DNA from: a virus
Reading direction: 5' to 3' (one strand)
DNA length: 20,697 bases
IMG/VR virus record: IMGVR_UViG_3300005617_000530
Location: 1-20,697 of that record
Shown: positions 274 through 20,053 of the stretch, piece after piece
Numbering within the stretch: position 1 is the stretch's first letter
Layout: every line of letters starts with the position of its first letter
Notes under the pieces: generated by a model
What the model was told of the DNA's origin: nothing
Database searches by the model: none
Seen by the model: the letters and a program-made list of their open reading frames with translations, nothing else
Made by a program: the position numbers and the translations under genes

Positions 274-624
274 GTGCCCACAGCGCGCAAGTTCACGTGT
301 GCTTGGTACCGAAGCGAGACCGGCAACGAACCCGCCCGGGAGTGGGTTCGTGGGCTTCCGAGAGAAGCGCGGCACGAAATCGGAGCAGACATGCTGTACG
401 TGCAGGCGTTCTGGCCGACGGGTATGCCGCGCGTCCGATCGCTAGGAGGGGGCCTGCACGAGCTTCGAACCACGGCTGCGTGCGGTGAGTACCGACTGTT
501 TTTCTGCGTCGAAGGCACCACGATTGTGGCGCTGCACGGCTTTCAAAAGAAGACCCAAGCGACGCCGGCCGGTGAGCTCAAGACGGCCAAGGAACGGCTC
601 AAGAAGGTGAAGGGGAAGCGATGA
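274..624 (+). CDS. higB: HigB-type toxin (phage Gp49-like, RelE/ParE superfamily)
   Basis: This 116-residue protein matches the Gp49-like HigB family. These are ribosome-dependent mRNA interferases or gyrase-type toxins of the RelE/ParE fold. Visible family features are the N-terminal strand followed by P-A-R-E-W-V-R-G-L-P (20-29), the central G-G-G-L-H-E-L-R-T strand (58-66), Y-R-L-F-F (73-77), and the C-terminal H-G-F-Q-K-K-T-Q (88-95) that precedes a Lys-rich helix. The length is normal for the family. The start is GTG at 274; an ATG two bases upstream is in the wrong frame. The stop overlaps the start of the antitoxin gene by 4 nt (ATGA), so the two are translationally coupled, toxin first, as in HigBA loci. 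It is plus-strand, against the surrounding minus-strand tail operon, so it is cargo rather than a virion gene. Which RNA or target it cuts cannot be told. Confidence 0.88.
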   Translation: MPTARKFTCAWYRSETGNEPAREWVRGLPREARHEIGADMLYVQAFWPTGMPRVRSLGGGLHELRTTAACGEYRLFFCVEGTTIVALHGFQKKTQATPAGELKTAKERLKKVKGKR

Positions 625-959
625 AAAACAAGCACATTGGCTCAAGCCTTGAATCGCTCTTTGAAGAGCTCGGCGAGCTCGGCGAAGTGCAAACGCTGGC
701 TAGCAAGAAGATCCTTGCCGAGCAGTTCCGCAGGTCCATGGAACTCAAGCACGTCTCTCAGAAGGCTCTTGCGGATCGTATGGCCACGAGCCGAACCGTG
801 ATCAACCGACTCTTGGATCCGAATGACACCGGGGTAACCCTTGCGACCATGGTGAAGGCCTCGGATGCCCTTGGTATGCGACTAGAAGTGCATGTGCGGG
901 ACAAGGGCACTCGTAGCAAGCAAGTCCCCAAGAGGGCTGCGGCCAAGCGGTCACGGTAG
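621..959 (+). CDS. higA: HigA-type antitoxin (XRE-family HTH)
   Basis: This 112-residue protein has an XRE-type helix-turn-helix at about residues 46-66 (S-Q-K-A-L-A-D-R-M then S-R-T-V-I-N-R-L-L), followed by T-G-V-T-L-A-T-M-V-K-A and D-A-L-G-M-R-L-E-V, which are typical of HigA antitoxins. The N-terminal 40 residues (acidic helix E-L-G-E-L-G-E) probably form the toxin-binding part. The C-terminus is strongly basic (K-R-A-A-A-K-R-S-R). The start ATG overlaps the toxin stop as ATGA, and an AGGGG ribosome-binding site lies 5 nt upstream (611-615). It should neutralise the HigB-like toxin and, through the palindrome at 247-266, repress the operon. Family assignment is firm. The operator pairing is inferred. 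Confidence 0.88.
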   Translation: MKNKHIGSSLESLFEELGELGEVQTLASKKILAEQFRRSMELKHVSQKALADRMATSRTVINRLLDPNDTGVTLATMVKASDALGMRLEVHVRDKGTRSKQVPKRAAAKRSR

Positions 960-13377: not shown

Positions 13378-15072
13378 CTACTCGCGCGGTTTCACGCGCT
13401 GCTTGCTTGGTGATTTGCCAGCGGGCGCGCCCGCGAAGTCCTTATCCGTATCGCCCTTGGGCATGGTGTCATCGTCCCCGTCGCCGTCCGGGTCTTTCAG
13501 ACTTGCCTGCGCGGCCATGTCATCCATGGCCCGTTGGCGCGCCTCGTCGGCTTCTTGCTCGGCGAGTTCGTGTTCCGCTTCAGGATCTTCCACGTGGAAC
13601 ACGTCAGCCAGCTCTCGGGTCGCGGTGTGCTTGGAGATAAATCCCGCGTCAACCGCGGTCTGTGCCGTGGTGACCCGCGCCTGTTGCTCGGCGGGCGTCT
13701 CGCTGAAGTACTTGCTGTATGCCAGCGTTACGGGCGGATCGAGCCAAGGGCCAGCGAGTTGAGCCCGGGTAAGCAGATCGCCTGCAGCATACGCGCCTGG
13801 GATCCAAACGTCCTCGCCGCGCTCAACAACCGTAGCCACCAGCCGAAGGCCAAGCTTGATTAGTTCGGCATAGCCATCGCGCCCAAGGTCGCTCCGAAGA
13901 TCGCCCGCAAGGGCAATCATCGGTGCGTGAATCATCTCGAGGAAGCGTCCGGAGACGTCGCCGCGCAGATGCTCTGGGCTAAACGCAACCACGCGGGTCG
14001 CTGCATGAAAGCGTGCCGTTAGATCATTGAGATGCTCGGTGGCCCGAATCGCCCCCTCGCCGCTAATCTCCGCCCACTCGAAGCCGCCGTTTTCGGGTAG
14101 GTCCCATACCTTGCCGGGGTTCTTCCGGAGTTCCTCGCGCTGGCCAAGATCTACGCCTTTGCGAATGCCCTGCGGCTCACACCCGTAGGCCACGGCACGA
14201 TCACGTTGGCTGATCGTAAGATTGACCGCGTCGAGCATCGGGTAAAGCTGGGGATCGATGACGGGCCTGCCGTCGAGCGGATCGCTTGAATCCGGGAGCG
14301 TACGAAGCCAGACGACGGGACAGAACCCCAAGCCGTGCTCCACGGTCTTGTCTGGATCGACCTTCCACTCGGGCAGTCGGCCCGCCACCACCATCTCCTC
14401 CAGGTAGACGGTGTCCTTCTCGGTGTCGATCGTGCGTCGGTACCAGAACCACCGAAGCCGAACGCCACCCACACCATTCGGGACTTCCTTCTGGTGCTGG
14501 TAGATGATGTCGAGTTTGGTTAGGCGCTTGGGGCAGACTGGATCGAACGTCGGCGTGCAATGCTTGCCGGGCTCGCTCTGCGCGATCACGTAGCCGCCTT
14601 GGCAGCCCAGGATCAATGCGCAGGAGGTGGTGATCAAGGCCTTGCGTGTAGCCTCTCGCATCGCTCGGTCAAGGTCCGAAGCCTCGACCATCGCCGCCAC
14701 GAATCGGGTGAGCTTCTGCGCGTCATCGCTCTGTAGGGCAGGGCCGATCTCGCCGGGCTCACCTTGGCTCTCATCGTCGCGTGTGGCGCCGACAATCGCC
14801 TTGGGGAACGTGCCTTGCCCCCAGACGAAAGACCCAAGCGCGTTGATCGCCTCCGCGTACAGAGGCACTTTGATCTTGGCGGACTTCTCCGAGAGCTTGG
14901 CAGTCGGGTCATCCCAAGGCTTTTTGCCGTGGTACTCGTCCTGCAGACCTAAGTTGTACGCCTCCGCCTCGGTGGCCTCCCTGTATCGTCGCGTGCTGCC
15001 GTACGTCGCGTTGCGACCGTAGAAGTCCGACAGCGACCGCTCGCCGGGCGTTGCGATGCCATAGACTGCCAT
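13378..15072 (-). CDS. Portal protein
   Basis: This 564-residue protein follows terminase directly, with a 1-nt overlap of stop and start (TGATG at 15074-15070). Its N-terminal half carries R-R-Y-R-E-A-T-E-A-E-A-Y and an early hydrophobic Y-A-E-A-I-N-A-L-G, and the middle has V-V-W-L-R-T-L-P-D and Q-L-Y-P-M-L-D-A-V-N-L-T-I-S-Q-R-D, a long portal-wing helix pattern. The C-terminal 60 residues are acidic, ending in a low-complexity Asp/Pro/Lys tail (D-P-D-G-D-G-D-D-D, then K-S-P-S-K). Length is in the usual 450-600 range. It should form the dodecameric vertex through which the terminase packages DNA. Confidence 0.85.
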   Translation of the reverse strand: MAVYGIATPGERSLSDFYGRNATYGSTRRYREATEAEAYNLGLQDEYHGKKPWDDPTAKLSEKSAKIKVPLYAEAINALGSFVWGQGTFPKAIVGATRDDESQGEPGEIGPALQSDDAQKLTRFVAAMVEASDLDRAMREATRKALITTSCALILGCQGGYVIAQSEPGKHCTPTFDPVCPKRLTKLDIIYQHQKEVPNGVGGVRLRWFWYRRTIDTEKDTVYLEEMVVAGRLPEWKVDPDKTVEHGLGFCPVVWLRTLPDSSDPLDGRPVIDPQLYPMLDAVNLTISQRDRAVAYGCEPQGIRKGVDLGQREELRKNPGKVWDLPENGGFEWAEISGEGAIRATEHLNDLTARFHAATRVVAFSPEHLRGDVSGRFLEMIHAPMIALAGDLRSDLGRDGYAELIKLGLRLVATVVERGEDVWIPGAYAAGDLLTRAQLAGPWLDPPVTLAYSKYFSETPAEQQARVTTAQTAVDAGFISKHTATRELADVFHVEDPEAEHELAEQEADEARQRAMDDMAAQASLKDPDGDGDDDTMPKGDTDKDFAGAPAGKSPSKQRVKPRE

Positions 15073-16298
15073 CAGTAGTCATTCAACGGAGAGTCATCGG
15101 TCGCGCTCGCCGGGGGAACCGACTGAGCAATCCATGCGTAAGCCGCGGCGTCACAAAAGTCGTCATAGGTGCCGACCGGAAACGAGAGTAACTCACGCGT
15201 GAAGTCGGGATTAAGATCCGGAGCGTGGTGAATCAGCCCCTGCTCATAGCGCGCTTCAAGGGGCTGGAAACGGGTTAGCTTATCCCGATCGGGCCGAACG
15301 CCTTCCACTGGCAGGTACGTCGTCCTAAGAAGCTCTTGAATCACCGCGGCCTGATACTGAACCTGCTCGATGGCGATCTTTCGTGGATTCCAATCGGCCG
15401 CAGCCCGCTTGATGAATTCGAGCACCTGATAAAACGGCGCCCGAACTCTGCGCGCGTCTAGAATCCACAGTTCACCTTTCGGCGCACGCCCCAGTACCAC
15501 CACCGCCGTGTAGTCCGCGGAGGTCTTTTCGCTAATCGCGAGGTCCACGCCCATCGTGATGGATAGGCCCTCGGGCGGCTCGGTCGTCTGCAGCCACGCT
15601 CGGCTGATGCGAGCGCCACCCGCGGAAACAAACTCCGCGCCAAACTCTCGCCGAGCGACAATGTCTGGCACCGCTGCCCGTGCCACAGCGATCTCACTAG
15701 GATCGATAAAAGGATTCGTTTCGCTCGGGAAAGACCAGCTTTTCCAGCCAGATTCACCGCGCTCACCCCTTTTATAAAGCTCATGAAACCAGCCGTCTTC
15801 GACATTGGGCGTCGAGACGAACAAGGCTCCGCCTTTGCGATCGGCAAGCGCTGGGCGAATCACATTCTCCCAGACCTCGCCGGGTTGGAAATCGGCTTCA
15901 TCGACGACGACAAAGTCAATGCCCTCACCGCGAAGGTTGTCGGCGTTATCGCTCGACTTGAACCAGAACTCACCGCCACCGGGGAATCGAATGCACCTCT
16001 CGGCGACTCGGATCTCAACGTCTGGCACCTGACCTGCCAGCGGGACAACGAGACGCCATGCGATACCAGCCTGCGCATACGTCGGAGCGAGCCACCAGAC
16101 CCTTTGGCCAGCGATGGCTCTAACCACGCCCATTGCCACGCCAAGGCGCGTCTTGCCCCAGCGACGGCCGCAGACCAGAACCTTCCAGCGCGCAGGATGA
16201 TCAGCTACCTCAATCTGTTTCGGGTGAAGGCTCGGTTTGTTCCGAATCCTCACCCGTCTTTTCATCTGCCCATCGGAGATCGATTGCGATAGCCCCAC
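15072..16298 (-). CDS. terL: Terminase large subunit
   Basis: This 408-residue protein has a Walker A motif C-G-R-R-W-G-K-T at residues 43-50, Walker B V-V-V-D-E-A-D (130-136), a motif III-like F-V-S-T-P-N (160-165), and a C-terminal RNase H-like nuclease start T-M-G-V-D-L-A (248-254) with later acidic residues (E311, D379, D380, D383). This is the ATPase-nuclease that cuts concatemers and drives packaging. The assigned start is GTG at 16298; an ATG at 16265 (codon 12) is the main alternative and would shorten the overlap with the small subunit. The family is certain; the start is not. Confidence 0.93.
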   Translation of the reverse strand: MGLSQSISDGQMKRRVRIRNKPSLHPKQIEVADHPARWKVLVCGRRWGKTRLGVAMGVVRAIAGQRVWWLAPTYAQAGIAWRLVVPLAGQVPDVEIRVAERCIRFPGGGEFWFKSSDNADNLRGEGIDFVVVDEADFQPGEVWENVIRPALADRKGGALFVSTPNVEDGWFHELYKRGERGESGWKSWSFPSETNPFIDPSEIAVARAAVPDIVARREFGAEFVSAGGARISRAWLQTTEPPEGLSITMGVDLAISEKTSADYTAVVVLGRAPKGELWILDARRVRAPFYQVLEFIKRAAADWNPRKIAIEQVQYQAAVIQELLRTTYLPVEGVRPDRDKLTRFQPLEARYEQGLIHHAPDLNPDFTRELLSFPVGTYDDFCDAAAYAWIAQSVPPASATDDSPLNDY

Positions 16299-16665
16299 CG
16301 TCTTTACCTGTATGCTCGTGCCGCTCTTTGCGGCCCCACTTCTCCGGGTAGCGACGCTCTAAGCGCCACGCGGCGGCTGTCCACTGCTCCGTTGCAGCCT
16401 TGGCGATCAGCGCAACGTCGCGGATCTCGGACGCTGCGATCGCTTCGTGCACCGCGTCATGGAAGTCTCGGTACGGAGCTTCCTCGTCACTCGTGTCATT
16501 CGCTTGAATGGCCCGCGCGCCACGCCGTAGCCAGTCGTAATACCGATCCTTGGCAATGCCTGCGTAGGCCGCTGCGGTATCGACGTAGTTGCCGGCTCGA
16601 AGGACGCTACAGATCTTCTCAGAGAGTTCCGGGGTTAGTTTGGTCGGTTTGGTGACCCGAGCCAT
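16210..16665 (-). CDS. terS: Terminase small subunit
   Basis: This 151-residue protein (from ATG at 16665) contains an N-terminal helix-turn-helix: L-S-E-K-I-C-S-V-L-R-A-G-N-Y, then T-A-A-A-Y-A-G-I and D-R-Y-Y-D-W-L-R-R-G-A. The A-A-A-x-A-G-I and Y-x-W-L-x-x-G pattern is typical of small terminase subunits that bind the packaging site. The central helix E-I-R-D-V-A-L-I-A-K-A would be the oligomerisation helix. The region after E-K-W-G-R-K-E-R is acidic. The TTG at 16686 is a less likely start. The 3' end overlaps the large subunit by 89 nt from GTG 16298, or 56 nt from ATG 16265. Confidence 0.85.
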   Translation of the reverse strand: MARVTKPTKLTPELSEKICSVLRAGNYVDTAAAYAGIAKDRYYDWLRRGARAIQANDTSDEEAPYRDFHDAVHEAIAASEIRDVALIAKAATEQWTAAAWRLERRYPEKWGRKERHEHTGKDGGAIAIDLRWADEKTGEDSEQTEPSPETD

Positions 16666-17401
16666 GGGATCCGTCTTTGATTGCAACCCAGGCGGCGAAG
16701 TTCATCCAACGCCAGACGCATTCAACGTGCGTAAAGCCTGCGCCTTGGAGAATCTGGTGGTTCCATGCTGCGCGCATCGGAACCAAGACCCCTTCAAGAG
16801 AGGCGCGTTTGCGCTCGATCGCTTCTGGGGAATAGCCCTGGGACTGCTTGTATGCGTGGTATTCCGCGATCAGGGTGTCATCGATCCGAACGGTGGAGCC
16901 GATGACCTTCTCTGTAAACAGAAAGGCGCCGCCCGGCACCGTAGAACGAAAGACATCAGAGACGATACGAGCTCGGTATTCAACCGGCACGAACTGCAAA
17001 GTAAGAATCGCAAGCGTGACACTTGCACGAACGTCCGGGTAGGTATCACGCAAGTCATGCTGCCGGATGCTGACATCTGGCCGATCGGCAAACTGCTCGC
17101 GGGCATAGGCGAGCATCGGTTCAGAGACTTCCGTCCCGACGAACGTGCATCGGCCTTTGAGCGCGTCGGCAATCGGGGCAAGCCCACTACCACGGCTACA
17201 ACCAAGATCCACGATCTCAGTGCCGTCTTGTGCGTACCGAAGGGTTAACCGCGTGACGACGTCTCGGAGCGCTTCGTATTGCGGGATCGAGCGTGCAAGC
17301 ATGTCATCGAAACAGCTTGCAACGGCATGGTCAAACGACCACCGACCGCTAGGCTGATGCTCGAGACTGTCGTCCGAAGGTTCGTCGGTACTCGGCTGCA
17401 T
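16619..17401 (-). CDS. cmoA: CmoA-like carboxy-SAM (Cx-SAM) synthase
   Basis: From ATG at 17401 this protein has 260 residues and aligns along its whole length with E. coli CmoA, which makes carboxy-S-adenosyl-L-methionine from SAM and prephenate. Shared segments, by my recall of E. coli CmoA, are W-S-F-D-H-A-V-A near 21-28, R-S-I-P-Q-Y (37-42), the SAM motif D-L-G-C-S (65-69), T-L-Q-F (134-137), V-P-G-G-A (155-159) followed by E-K, G-Y-S-x-x-x-I-x-x-K-R (189-199) and N-F-A-A-W-V-A-I-K. Arg199 matches CmoA Arg199, which binds the Cx-SAM carboxylate. Differences are CmoA D89/N90 to E91/V92 and N132 to I132. The end overlaps the small terminase and the start lies inside the asparagine-synthetase-like gene. 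No CmoB partner is present. The upstream TTG at 17470 is a less likely start. Family assignment is strong; product not proven. Confidence 0.85.
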   Translation of the reverse strand: MQPSTDEPSDDSLEHQPSGRWSFDHAVASCFDDMLARSIPQYEALRDVVTRLTLRYAQDGTEIVDLGCSRGSGLAPIADALKGRCTFVGTEVSEPMLAYAREQFADRPDVSIRQHDLRDTYPDVRASVTLAILTLQFVPVEYRARIVSDVFRSTVPGGAFLFTEKVIGSTVRIDDTLIAEYHAYKQSQGYSPEAIERKRASLEGVLVPMRAAWNHQILQGAGFTHVECVWRWMNFAAWVAIKDGSHGSGHQTDQTNPGTL

Positions 17402-18758
17402 AGAAACTCTGGGGGCTTGCAAGCCTGGACTCAATGACCGCTTTGAGGCCCATGCCGTCCTGGAAGGCAACCTTAGGGCGCCGCGTCACGATAGCGGGAA
17501 GTAGTCCCGCCATCGCATCCTGAATGACCGCCTTGGGGCGCGCCTTGCCATCCTGAACAACCCGCTGGGGGAGCGAAAGCGCGAACTCAACCAAGGGCGG
17601 GTGAAGAAACGGCAGGCGGCACTCTACGGAGTGGGCCATAAAGACTTTGTTGCACCGGGGGAAGTTCTTGCGGGCTTGGGTCAGAAACAGGTTCTTGCGG
17701 TAGGTGTGCCAGTCCTGCGTTTTGAGCGCGTGGTAGGCAAAGCCGTAGCTGCCCCAGAGTTCATCCGAACCTTCCCCGCTAAACGTCACCTTGAAGCCGT
17801 CGCTATGCATGGCCTGGGCAAGCCGTAGACAAGCCCAGCCGATCTCGACCTGTGCCTTGTAGGGCTGCTCGATGACCCGCACGACCTTGGCCAGGTCATC
17901 GGCTGATGGCGGCGGGACGCGAATTTCGCGTAACTCGATCCGAAGCGCAGCAGCAACCTCTCGAGCCGCCCGGAGGTCTTTGGACTTGCGATCCAGAACG
18001 GCCGTGTAGGCTACAAGCCCGGGACGCTCTTGGGCTAGGAAGTAGGCCACCGCGGCCGAATCAATCCCGCCGGATAGTAGGGTACAGACCGGGACGTCGC
18101 TAATCGCTCGCTCTCTAGACCCTCGTTCAATCAAGCCACGTAGGGAGGCCCGCGCGGCTTCGGGTGTCATCGGAACGGGACGGGCAGGGGGATCGTACCA
18201 ACGAGCCTTCCGAATGCCCTTGGCAGAGACTTCTAGGCGCTCACCCGGTCCTACATCCGTGATCGCTGCGGGCTGGACTCGTAGGGCAAGCAGTGCCTTG
18301 AGTTCGGACGCAAACACAAACGGCTTGGTGGGCGCATAGTGCAGCGGGACTTCACCAAAACGATCGCGTGCTAGGTGCAGCGTCTTGCCGTCATTCGTCC
18401 AGGCAAGGGCAAACATCCCATTGAGCCTGGCCAACGCAGCAGGGCCCCACGTCTGGAGCGCGGCGGCTACGACTTCGGTGTCACCGGTCGTAGTGAAGGT
18501 TTTGCCAAGCGTCTGGAGTTGGGCTCGGACGGCTTTGTAATTCCAGATCTCTCCGTTGAATGCGAGAGCAACCTTGCCGTAGTGAAACGGCTGATTGCTG
18601 CGAGGATCGAGGTCTAGGATGGCCAGGCGCGTATGGCCTAGTACGACGTCACCGGCCTGGAAGATGGATTGTTGATCCGGGCCACGGTGAATCAGTGCGG
18701 CGATTCCACGTTCGATGGTAGTCGGCTGGATCCATAGACCCCCGACTAGGCCGCACAT
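17349..18758 (-). CDS. Asparagine-synthetase-like glutamine-dependent amidotransferase
   Basis: This 469-residue protein has the N-terminal nucleophile Cys2 (M-C-G-L-V-G-G), then H-R-G-P-D (24-28), H-T-R-L-A-I-L-D (42-49), F-N-G-E-I-W-N-Y (67-74) and G-D-T-E-V (92-96), the glutaminase pocket of class II amidotransferases. The synthetase half has the PP-loop S-G-G-I-D-S (229-234), S-G-E-G-S-D-E (327-333) and the Lys of R-R-P-K-V-A-F-Q-D-G (426-435), which aligns with catalytic K449 of E. coli AsnB. The E. coli AsnB aspartate segment T-x-R-A-S-T-P (by recall) is not there; its place reads A-Q-V-E-I-G-W-A (302-309). So ATP-activated carboxylate amidation is expected, but on another substrate. 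It overlaps the C5-methyltransferase stop by 13 nt and the CmoA-like start by 53 nt. Proposed substrate: the carboxymethyl group on DNA cytosine. Confidence 0.85.
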   Translation of the reverse strand: MCGLVGGLWIQPTTIERGIAALIHRGPDQQSIFQAGDVVLGHTRLAILDLDPRSNQPFHYGKVALAFNGEIWNYKAVRAQLQTLGKTFTTTGDTEVVAAALQTWGPAALARLNGMFALAWTNDGKTLHLARDRFGEVPLHYAPTKPFVFASELKALLALRVQPAAITDVGPGERLEVSAKGIRKARWYDPPARPVPMTPEAARASLRGLIERGSRERAISDVPVCTLLSGGIDSAAVAYFLAQERPGLVAYTAVLDRKSKDLRAAREVAAALRIELREIRVPPPSADDLAKVVRVIEQPYKAQVEIGWACLRLAQAMHSDGFKVTFSGEGSDELWGSYGFAYHALKTQDWHTYRKNLFLTQARKNFPRCNKVFMAHSVECRLPFLHPPLVEFALSLPQRVVQDGKARPKAVIQDAMAGLLPAIVTRRPKVAFQDGMGLKAVIESRLASPQSFYAAEYRRTFGRQSRASA

Positions 18759-20053
18759 GAGAGCTTGCGAAGAATCTGGTCACGAACCGTGGAAGCGATT
18801 GCCGCCATCATGACCGGGGGAACGGAACGACCACAGCGCTCCCATTGCTGAGCGTAGGTGCCTTTGAGCACAAAGTCATCCGGGAATGAACAGATCCGCT
18901 TGAGTTCCGCGATTGAGAACTTACGCCGCTCCGTCGGGTGCGTGACTGATGCAACGGACGCATCCCCGCCACGCTGAGTGATTGTCGGGCACGGCGCGTT
19001 CGGATCCGGGCGCACGAGCTGAAAGTATTTCTCGCTCTGCTCGCCTTGCTTGAGCTTGTCCCATTCGGCACCGACCGCATAGCGCGAGATATCTGCCTCA
19101 GGCTCGATCACGAGAGAGATCTCAGAATTCGTGTGACGCCGGCCGTGCGTAAGCACGGTGGGAGCAGGCTCGTCGAGTGATCGCGTTTTCTTGTGCGTTG
19201 CGACGCTCACGGCCCGGCTCTGAGCCTGCACATGAAAACGCATATTTGAGCCACCACCCGCGGAACGGATCGTACACATGGGCTCGTTCGCAACATCGAA
19301 AACACGGGTACCCTCGAAACCCCTAGCGTCGTGTGTCACGGCAGTAATCCACGGCAACGCATCGCGTACGCTGTATCGATAGGGCAGCGGGCTTGGGTGT
19401 GCGGGCGCTAGACCGAGATCATTGCGCACGCCGACAAAGATCAATCGCTGTCGTGCCTGCGGAACACCGAGCCACTGGGCATCAAGAAGCTGGGCGGCTA
19501 CGCGATACCCGCATGCCTTGAGCGCTGCCAGAATCTCCTTGAAGTAGCCCTTGGCCGTGCCCTTCACGAGACCCGAGACGTTCTCGGCTACGAAGGTTTT
19601 CGGCTGAAGACCTTTGAGTAGGCGCGCGTACTCGAAGAACAGATCATCAACGCGTTGGGCCGTATCCGAGTAGGCCTTGACCTTGCCCCAGGCTTCTTCA
19701 CGCTTACCGGCCGTCGAGAAGGACGCACACGGCGGGGAGCCATCGAGCAAGTCAATCTCACCGACCTTGAGCTTGGTAGCCTTGAGAATGTCCTCGGGCT
19801 GGATCTTTCGGATATCCCGCGGATCAAGAATCGTGCTTTCGAAGTTCGCTTGGTAGGTCTCACGCGCTGCGGGGATAAACTCATTCGCCCAGACCACCTT
19901 GAAGCCGGCCATGCGGTAGCCAAGGCAAGACCCGCCGCCACCAGAGAACGTGCTTACGACCTTGAAACCGTTCCACGGCAGGGCCCGGATCTCGGCCATG
20001 CTCGGCACGCGGTAAGGCGGCTTCGCTGGTGCCTGCTTACGCTTTACGACCAT
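18746..20053 (-). CDS. DNA cytosine-C5 methyltransferase with Arg in motif X (predicted carboxymethyltransferase)
   Basis: This 435-residue protein has the motifs of C5-cytosine methyltransferases in order: motif I S-T-F-S-G-G-G-G (34-41), a motif II acidic residue in A-N-E-F (56-59), motif IV S-P-P-C-A-S-F-S (106-113, Cys109 the nucleophile), motif VI E-N-V (157-159), motif VIII Q-A-R-Q-R-L-I-F (199-206), then a target-recognition stretch and F-P-D-D-F near the end. Motif X reads C-G-R-S-V-P-P (407-413): Arg409 (codon CGT at 18829-18827) replaces the near-invariant Asn of G-N-S/A-V-P-P. Asn-to-Lys at this position in M.MpeI (N374K, by recall) lets the enzyme take Cx-SAM. With a CmoA-like gene two places downstream, carboxymethylation of cytosine is likely. 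Recognition sequence unknown. ATG at 20053 overlaps the ParB-like stop by 10 nt. Confidence 0.93.
   Translation of the reverse strand: MVVKRKQAPAKPPYRVPSMAEIRALPWNGFKVVSTFSGGGGSCLGYRMAGFKVVWANEFIPAARETYQANFESTILDPRDIRKIQPEDILKATKLKVGEIDLLDGSPPCASFSTAGKREEAWGKVKAYSDTAQRVDDLFFEYARLLKGLQPKTFVAENVSGLVKGTAKGYFKEILAALKACGYRVAAQLLDAQWLGVPQARQRLIFVGVRNDLGLAPAHPSPLPYRYSVRDALPWITAVTHDARGFEGTRVFDVANEPMCTIRSAGGGSNMRFHVQAQSRAVSVATHKKTRSLDEPAPTVLTHGRRHTNSEISLVIEPEADISRYAVGAEWDKLKQGEQSEKYFQLVRPDPNAPCPTITQRGGDASVASVTHPTERRKFSIAELKRICSFPDDFVLKGTYAQQWERCGRSVPPVMMAAIASTVRDQILRKLSCAA

Follow-up and report, generated by a model that had tools for sequence, protein, structure and literature searches.

A DNA cytosine C5-methyltransferase gene carried by a virus has arginine where motif X usually has asparagine, and the question raised by this locus is what an enzyme with such a residue would put on cytosine. 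The stretch of DNA analysed here (the window) spans an entire IMG/VR virus record, 20697 bases long, which is fragment-size and is probably a fragment. Gene content and gene order, the identity of residues, the match in structure and the co-occurrence of genes come directly from the computed results.

The initial annotation of this DNA had reported the substitution and suggested that a basic residue at this position could pair with the carboxylate of carboxy-SAM (Cx-SAM). Its codons and positions are exact, with Gly408 encoded by GGT at 18832-18830 and Arg409 by CGT at 18829-18827, and the translated motif X reads Q-W-E-R-C-G-R-S-V-P-P-V-M-M, with Arg409 in place of the usual Asn. At least two base changes are needed, as had been stated (AAT to CGT takes two, AAC to CGT three), and the other catalytic motifs were rightly described as intact: Cys109 in G-S-P-P-C, E-N-V at residues 157-159 and Q-A-R-Q-R at 199-203, all within an uninterrupted open frame of 435 codons (20053..18746, minus strand). 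The suggested pairing gains support from alignment, in which Arg409 corresponds to Arg350 of SpCmoX, a residue in contact with the carboxymethyl group of Cx-SAM. The initial annotation did not include the strongest local evidence, a gene for a Cx-SAM synthase within the same operon-like cluster.

Table 1. Features of the cassette and adjoining genes in the window.
Feature	Position	Strand	Evidence or remark
ParB N-terminal-domain protein, 186 aa	20044..20604	-	Pfam ParB_N, E 2.5e-8; first gene of the cluster
CmoX-type DNA cytosine C5-carboxymethyltransferase (predicted), 435 aa	18746..20053	-	Pfam DNA_methylase, E 1.4e-57; matches 8yf3
Motif X codons GGT CGT, Gly408-Arg409	18827..18832	-	Predicted Cx-SAM carboxylate-binding Arg; aligned to SpCmoX Arg350
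CmoY, glutamine-amidotransferase type, 469 aa	17349..18758	-	Pfam GATase_6, GATase_7, Asn_synthase
CmoA-like Cx-SAM synthase (predicted)	16619..17470	-	NCBIfam TIGR00740 CmoA, E 2.2e-45
Terminase small subunit, next gene	16210..16686	-	phrog_4102, E 5.3e-38
Terminase large subunit	15072..16298	-	Pfam Terminase_6N and 6C

The genes of the cassette and those that follow it are all on the minus strand and tightly packed head to tail with overlapping ends, in the order ParB-domain gene, CmoX, asparagine-synthetase-like gene, CmoA-like gene, terminase small subunit, terminase large subunit and portal. The C-terminus of the ParB-domain protein is CPKCGYEW, possibly half of a zinc ribbon. In the terminase search all matches were remote and pointed to no host. 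Elsewhere in the window (274-959, plus strand), a Gp49-like protein, which we take to be of RelE/HigB type, and an HTH protein lie in tandem and are likely a toxin-antitoxin pair.

Yang et al. (Nat Commun, 7 Dec 2025; PMC12783734) describe a CmoA-CmoX-CmoY system in Synechococcus phage S-B43, and the window's cassette is therefore a member of an already published kind. According to that paper, Cx-SAM is the product of phage CmoA and 5-carboxymethylcytosine that of CmoX, and in S-B43 the ligase CmoY adds glycine. In the crystal structure 8YF3, Arg350 of SpCmoX touches the carboxymethyl group of Cx-SAM, and its counterpart in M.HhaI is Asn304; the wild-type enzyme accepts only Cx-SAM and the R350N mutant accepts neither cofactor (PMC12783734). 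The engineered M.MpeI N374K, with a basic residue at the equivalent place in motif X, also accepts Cx-SAM (as related in PMC12783734); it has a single engineered change, and the natural enzymes differ also at the residue after the catalytic Cys. The same source counts 5,615 CmoX candidates, 4,257 CmoA neighbours and 1,660 ParBc neighbours, which points to a wide family. It further reports that the ligases of the second largest cluster include a glutaminase domain, suggests ammonia as their substrate, and states that the authors did not succeed in obtaining soluble protein of this cluster (PMC12783734). Among the matches listed for DNA carboxymethylation, this paper alone was on topic by title and start of abstract, and we found no report of carbamoylmethylcytosine or its kin in the open-licence PMC literature.

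Both S-B43 and the window place a Cx-SAM synthase gene beside genes for an AMP-forming ligase and for a C5-methyltransferase in which Arg takes the place of the motif X Asn. The gene order differs, being CmoA-CmoY-CmoX in S-B43 and ParB-CmoX-CmoY-CmoA in the window, and so does the ligase: SpCmoY has 271 aa, lacks a glutaminase domain and adds glycine, whereas the window's CmoY has 469 aa and includes that domain. The identical four-gene order is found in Streptomyces phage TurkishDelight (gp122-gp125, NC_073473), the nearest named phage that came up, where gp122 is the ParB-type gene ahead of CmoX; CmoX is 58% and CmoY 54% identical to the window's proteins, and the four genes are annotated merely as ParB-like, methyltransferases and glutamine amidotransferase.

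SpCmoX is the best PDB sequence match of the window's CmoX (8yf3, E 1.4e-71; runner-up 5.6e-25). An AlphaFold2 model for which 35 sequences were used (mean pLDDT 81.8, with poor prediction at residues 238-312) points to the same entry as its top structural match (Z 39.0, rmsd 2.2, 314 aligned), followed by M.HaeIII (1dct, Z 32.5), M.HhaI (2i9k, 31.7) and, lower, M.MpeI (4dkj, 27.0). All six mapped residues are identical, SpCmoX F25, E47, F48, D69, C98 and R350 being F36, E58, F59, D80, C109 and R409 in the window, and in the alignment Arg409 falls on the motif X Asn of M.HaeIII. Ordinary 5mC C5-methyltransferases usually have PCQ at the catalytic Cys; the window's enzyme has PCA there, and Arg409 rather than Asn. 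Both elements of the CmoX filter of Yang et al. are present, SPPC at residues 106-109 and, as R409, the Arg equivalent to SpCmoX R350. Taken on sequence and model, the Arg409 enzyme very probably transfers a carboxymethyl group.

The CmoA-like ORF opens at TTG 17470, with ATG 17401 the likelier start. Its best NCBIfam family is carboxy-S-adenosyl-L-methionine synthase, at 155.2 bits against a curated cut-off of 193.3; the verified SpCmoA itself scores just 115.6. The closest solved relative is E. coli CmoA (4gek, phmmer E 8.2e-31). Equivalents of Tyr39, Asp62, Gly64, Ser66, Asp117, Glu164 and Arg199 are retained, and the protein deviates at Asp89 (Glu) and Asn132 (Ile). In E. coli CmoA, Arg199 is described as forming a salt bridge with the carboxylate of the cofactor (PMC3663124). 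Verified SpCmoA carries Glu at this position, and we therefore dropped the residue as a strict criterion.

We then asked how motif X and these neighbours are distributed in other genomes. The window's CmoX fetched 78 viral loci, of which 3 are cut before motif X. Sixty of the 75 readable loci have Arg in motif X, and Arg409 is therefore no isolated oddity. A CmoA-like ORF is present in 60/60 Arg loci versus 0/15 Asn loci, and a ligase ORF in 23/60 versus 0/15. Fourteen of the Asn loci hold at least 2.9 kb downstream; the other, L079, has 0.5 kb downstream and 7.7 kb upstream. The window's CmoA is matched only remotely, at 25-50 bits, by many of the CmoA-like ORFs. For nine CmoA proteins (seven from these or similar loci, with those of a Staphylococcus phage and S-B43), CmoA was the top NCBIfam family every time, always under the curated cut-off.

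A second set of 76 loci was fetched with the window's ligase. It comprises 57 loci with Arg and CmoA, 11 with Arg and no CmoA, 2 with CmoA and an unreadable motif X, 5 with CmoA and no CmoX, and 1 with neither; a CmoX ORF is thus present in 70/76. The 11 Arg loci without CmoA start within the ligase gene or at most 121 bases ahead of it, and any CmoA gene upstream would fall off the contig. The locus with neither gene (L081) encodes a GATase-type CmoY with a KVQVEIG motif, in a 115 kb virus record in which no CmoX or CmoA match was found.

The third set, 80 loci of bacterial genomes, includes 34 with Arg and CmoA, 5 scored as Arg without CmoA, 29 with Asn and 10 with Met, all without CmoA, and 2 unreadable. 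One of the five, L224, had been scored as Arg with PCQ and was not counted, because its contig end, near 1464, runs into adapter-like sequence (presumably an Illumina-type adapter) that mimics the motif X Arg. Two others, L199 and L213, end less than 100 bases from CmoX, and L203 and L212 have a ligase and no CmoA. Among genuine Arg loci of bacterial genomes, CmoA therefore accompanies 34/38, against 0/29 with Asn and 0/10 with Met. Scans of viral contigs with CmoA queries widened the set little (2 loci with the window's CmoA, 3 with the Staphylococcus phage CmoA). In the fetched loci, one residue nearly always predicts whether the phage also carries a Cx-SAM synthase.

Several other arrangements came to light. 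In the Staphylococcus phage SPbeta-like locus L165 (4983-6682) and three viral contigs (L167-L169), CmoA adjoins an M.HhaI-like C5-methyltransferase with VGGVINQ in motif X and PCQ in motif IV; these enzymes are possibly another solution to Cx-SAM use, one that a filter for SPPC plus Arg misses. Ten Bacillota C5-methyltransferases (L226, L230, L238, L241-L244 and L247-L249) have Met in motif X (GMSVPP), PCS at motif IV and no CmoA, with prophage-like surroundings in the examples viewed. The Verrucomicrobiota MAG USDE_maxbin.037 holds six CmoX-CmoA loci (L171-L173, L176, L177, L182), some on short contigs; L126 (1120-3374) has a tandem pair of CmoX ORFs with Arg in both; and Alcaligenes phage Afa-NA1 has a CmoA gene (L163, 5992-6744) with no C5-methyltransferase found within 6 kb.

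What becomes of a carboxymethylated cytosine depends on the ligase. CmoY combines an N-terminal class II glutaminase with an AMP-forming amide ligase domain, and its position beside CmoX is that of the published glutaminase-domain CmoY cluster. Its AlphaFold2 model (pLDDT 91.9) has E. coli AsnB (1ct9) as best match, alike in fold and in the glutaminase and PP-loop sites. The glutaminase residues Cys2, Arg44, Asn68-Gly69-Glu70 and Asp93 are kept, as are a PP-loop SGGIDS and Lys429. Since the glutaminase site is intact, the likely product is 5-carbamoylmethylcytosine. We lean, on sequence grounds, towards a glutamine-dependent amidation by CmoY as the better of the available readings.

In a rather unlikely alternative, 5-carboxymethylcytosine is made by CmoX as above, but the ligase would couple it to a different amine or use free ammonia only, or the carboxylate would stay unchanged. 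The characterised ligase SpCmoY does use glycine, and the low share of Arg loci with a recognised ligase in the first set would fit a carboxylate left as it is. In addition, GATase-type ligases such as that of L085 and those of similar viral contigs have Thr in place of Glu in the glutamine-site NGE (35 of 68 readable rows), so that glutamine use may differ; the window's CmoY has Glu. Against this, a glycine ligase would have no need of the complete glutaminase domain of CmoY, in which Cys2 and every pocket residue compared are present, and the window's ligase keeps SGEGSDE, which the aligned glycine-type ligases have lost.

The substrate of CmoY is less certain than that of CmoX, because the protein passes the asparagine-synthase cut-off of TIGR01536 (293.5 versus 267.1 bits) and keeps the aspartate contacts of human ASNS. 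In models of the human enzyme, the aspartyl part of the intermediate is contacted by Gly365, Asp367, Glu368 and Arg403 (PMC11615228) and likewise by Glu364 (PMC6748925), and CmoY has equivalents of these residues. Together with the AsnB fold, these features would suit a true asparagine synthetase with no part in DNA modification, an explanation that we regard as improbable. Against it, the synthetase-site stretch DxTTxRAS of E. coli AsnB and human ASNS is YKAQVEIG in CmoY, whose C-terminus is shorter than that of AsnB. K301, Q303 and E305 occur in 72/72 GATase-type rows (at least 350 aa each; the window contributes two of these rows, one beginning at its ATG and one taken as an open frame). 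All 12 of 12 glycine-type ligases have K-x-x-[FI]-E, so that both ligase types share K-x-x-[hydrophobic]-E. Neither E. coli AsnB nor human ASNS has the motif, nor do six host AsnB-family proteins from four bacterial genomes, while the two cassette ligases in the same host-paralogue search both carry it. The presence of CmoX at nearly all ligase loci of the second set also argues against a role in asparagine synthesis. We propose that K-x-x-[hydrophobic]-E marks the use of 5cxmC as substrate. An AsnB-like gene without the KxxxE motif lies within a 7-deazaguanine gene cluster of Achromobacter phage Motura (L164, 5001-6281), where amidation may have been reused.

As for CmoX itself, a rival to its assignment is that the enzyme is a standard 5-methylcytosine methyltransferase able to tolerate a motif X Arg. 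The remaining motifs are all of C5-methyltransferase type, and plain Asn relatives reach 75% identity to an Arg member. This is nevertheless highly improbable, given that Arg accompanies CmoA-like genes and Asn never does in the fetched loci, and that wild-type SpCmoX is reported to accept Cx-SAM only (PMC12783734). Decay of a dead gene, or a sequencing error within one, can be dismissed almost entirely as the origin of Arg409: nothing in its favour was found, two or three base changes would be required, the frame is intact, and the same Arg in dozens of separate records rules out an isolated event.

The residue after the catalytic Cys also switches between the Asn clade and its Arg relatives. 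Among distinct rows, leaving out 13 with unreadable Cys or motif X positions, it is Ala in 84, Ser in 50, Val in 2 and Gln in 1 (the L224 artefact) of those with Arg; Gln in 41, Thr in 2 and Val in 1 of those with Asn; and Ser in the 9 with Met. Gln thus follows Cys in 41/44 distinct Asn rows and, with L224 left out, in 0/136 distinct Arg rows. PaBG, outside the counted sets, combines Arg with Lys at this position. The stretch 129-137, probably part of the catalytic loop, likewise differs in the Asn clade.

A tree of 129 rows, built without columns 110 and 409, has 6 changes between Arg and not-Arg, at least 2 of them on strongly supported branches; a tree of 79 rows has 5, of which 2 are on supported branches. 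A supported clade of 15 Asn rows is nested in a supported clade of 94 rows, 76 of which have Arg. The simplest reading, suggested by these trees whose root was not inferred, is that Arg reverted to Asn and CmoA was lost. On supported branches, each of the two trees offers just 2 independent Arg/Asn switches that pair with CmoA, too few for the sign test to reach significance (p 0.5); the residue after Cys changes in the same direction as Arg/Asn in 0.8 of 2 pairs on average.

The protein activities, the amide product and the biological role that we infer would fit together as follows. The CmoA-like protein would convert SAM and prephenate to carboxy-SAM. CmoX would flip out cytosine, Cys109 would attack C6 and the carboxymethyl group would be moved to C5, producing 5-carboxymethylcytosine. 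Arg409 would hold the cofactor carboxylate, and Ala110 after the catalytic Cys, in place of the usual Gln, may go with the carboxylate pocket. CmoY would then adenylate the carboxylate with ATP, and ammonia released from glutamine by its own N-terminal domain would yield 5-carbamoylmethylcytosine. The modified cytosine presumably protects phage DNA from restriction. That the cassette hypermodifies phage cytosine along this scheme is, in our judgement, likely, the amidation step being the weaker one. We hold slightly in favour of the joint proposal that 5-carbamoylmethylcytosine arises on DNA by glutamine-dependent amidation and that the family as a whole is a toggle between carboxymethyltransferases with Arg and a small residue and methyltransferases with Asn and Gln, the former reverting to the latter upon loss of the Cx-SAM synthase.

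New here are the co-occurrence of Arg with CmoA, the residue after Cys, the nested Asn clade and the common ligase motif. The cassette co-occurrence provides an independent test of a very recent discovery, and the window adds one more glutaminase-type ligase to that branch of the system. The linked residue after Cys and the ligase motif are candidate specificity determinants. The published R350N enzyme accepted neither cofactor, and natural Asn relatives reveal further positions that change along with Arg/Asn. If the amidation is true, 5-carbamoylmethylcytosine would be a primary-amide DNA base.
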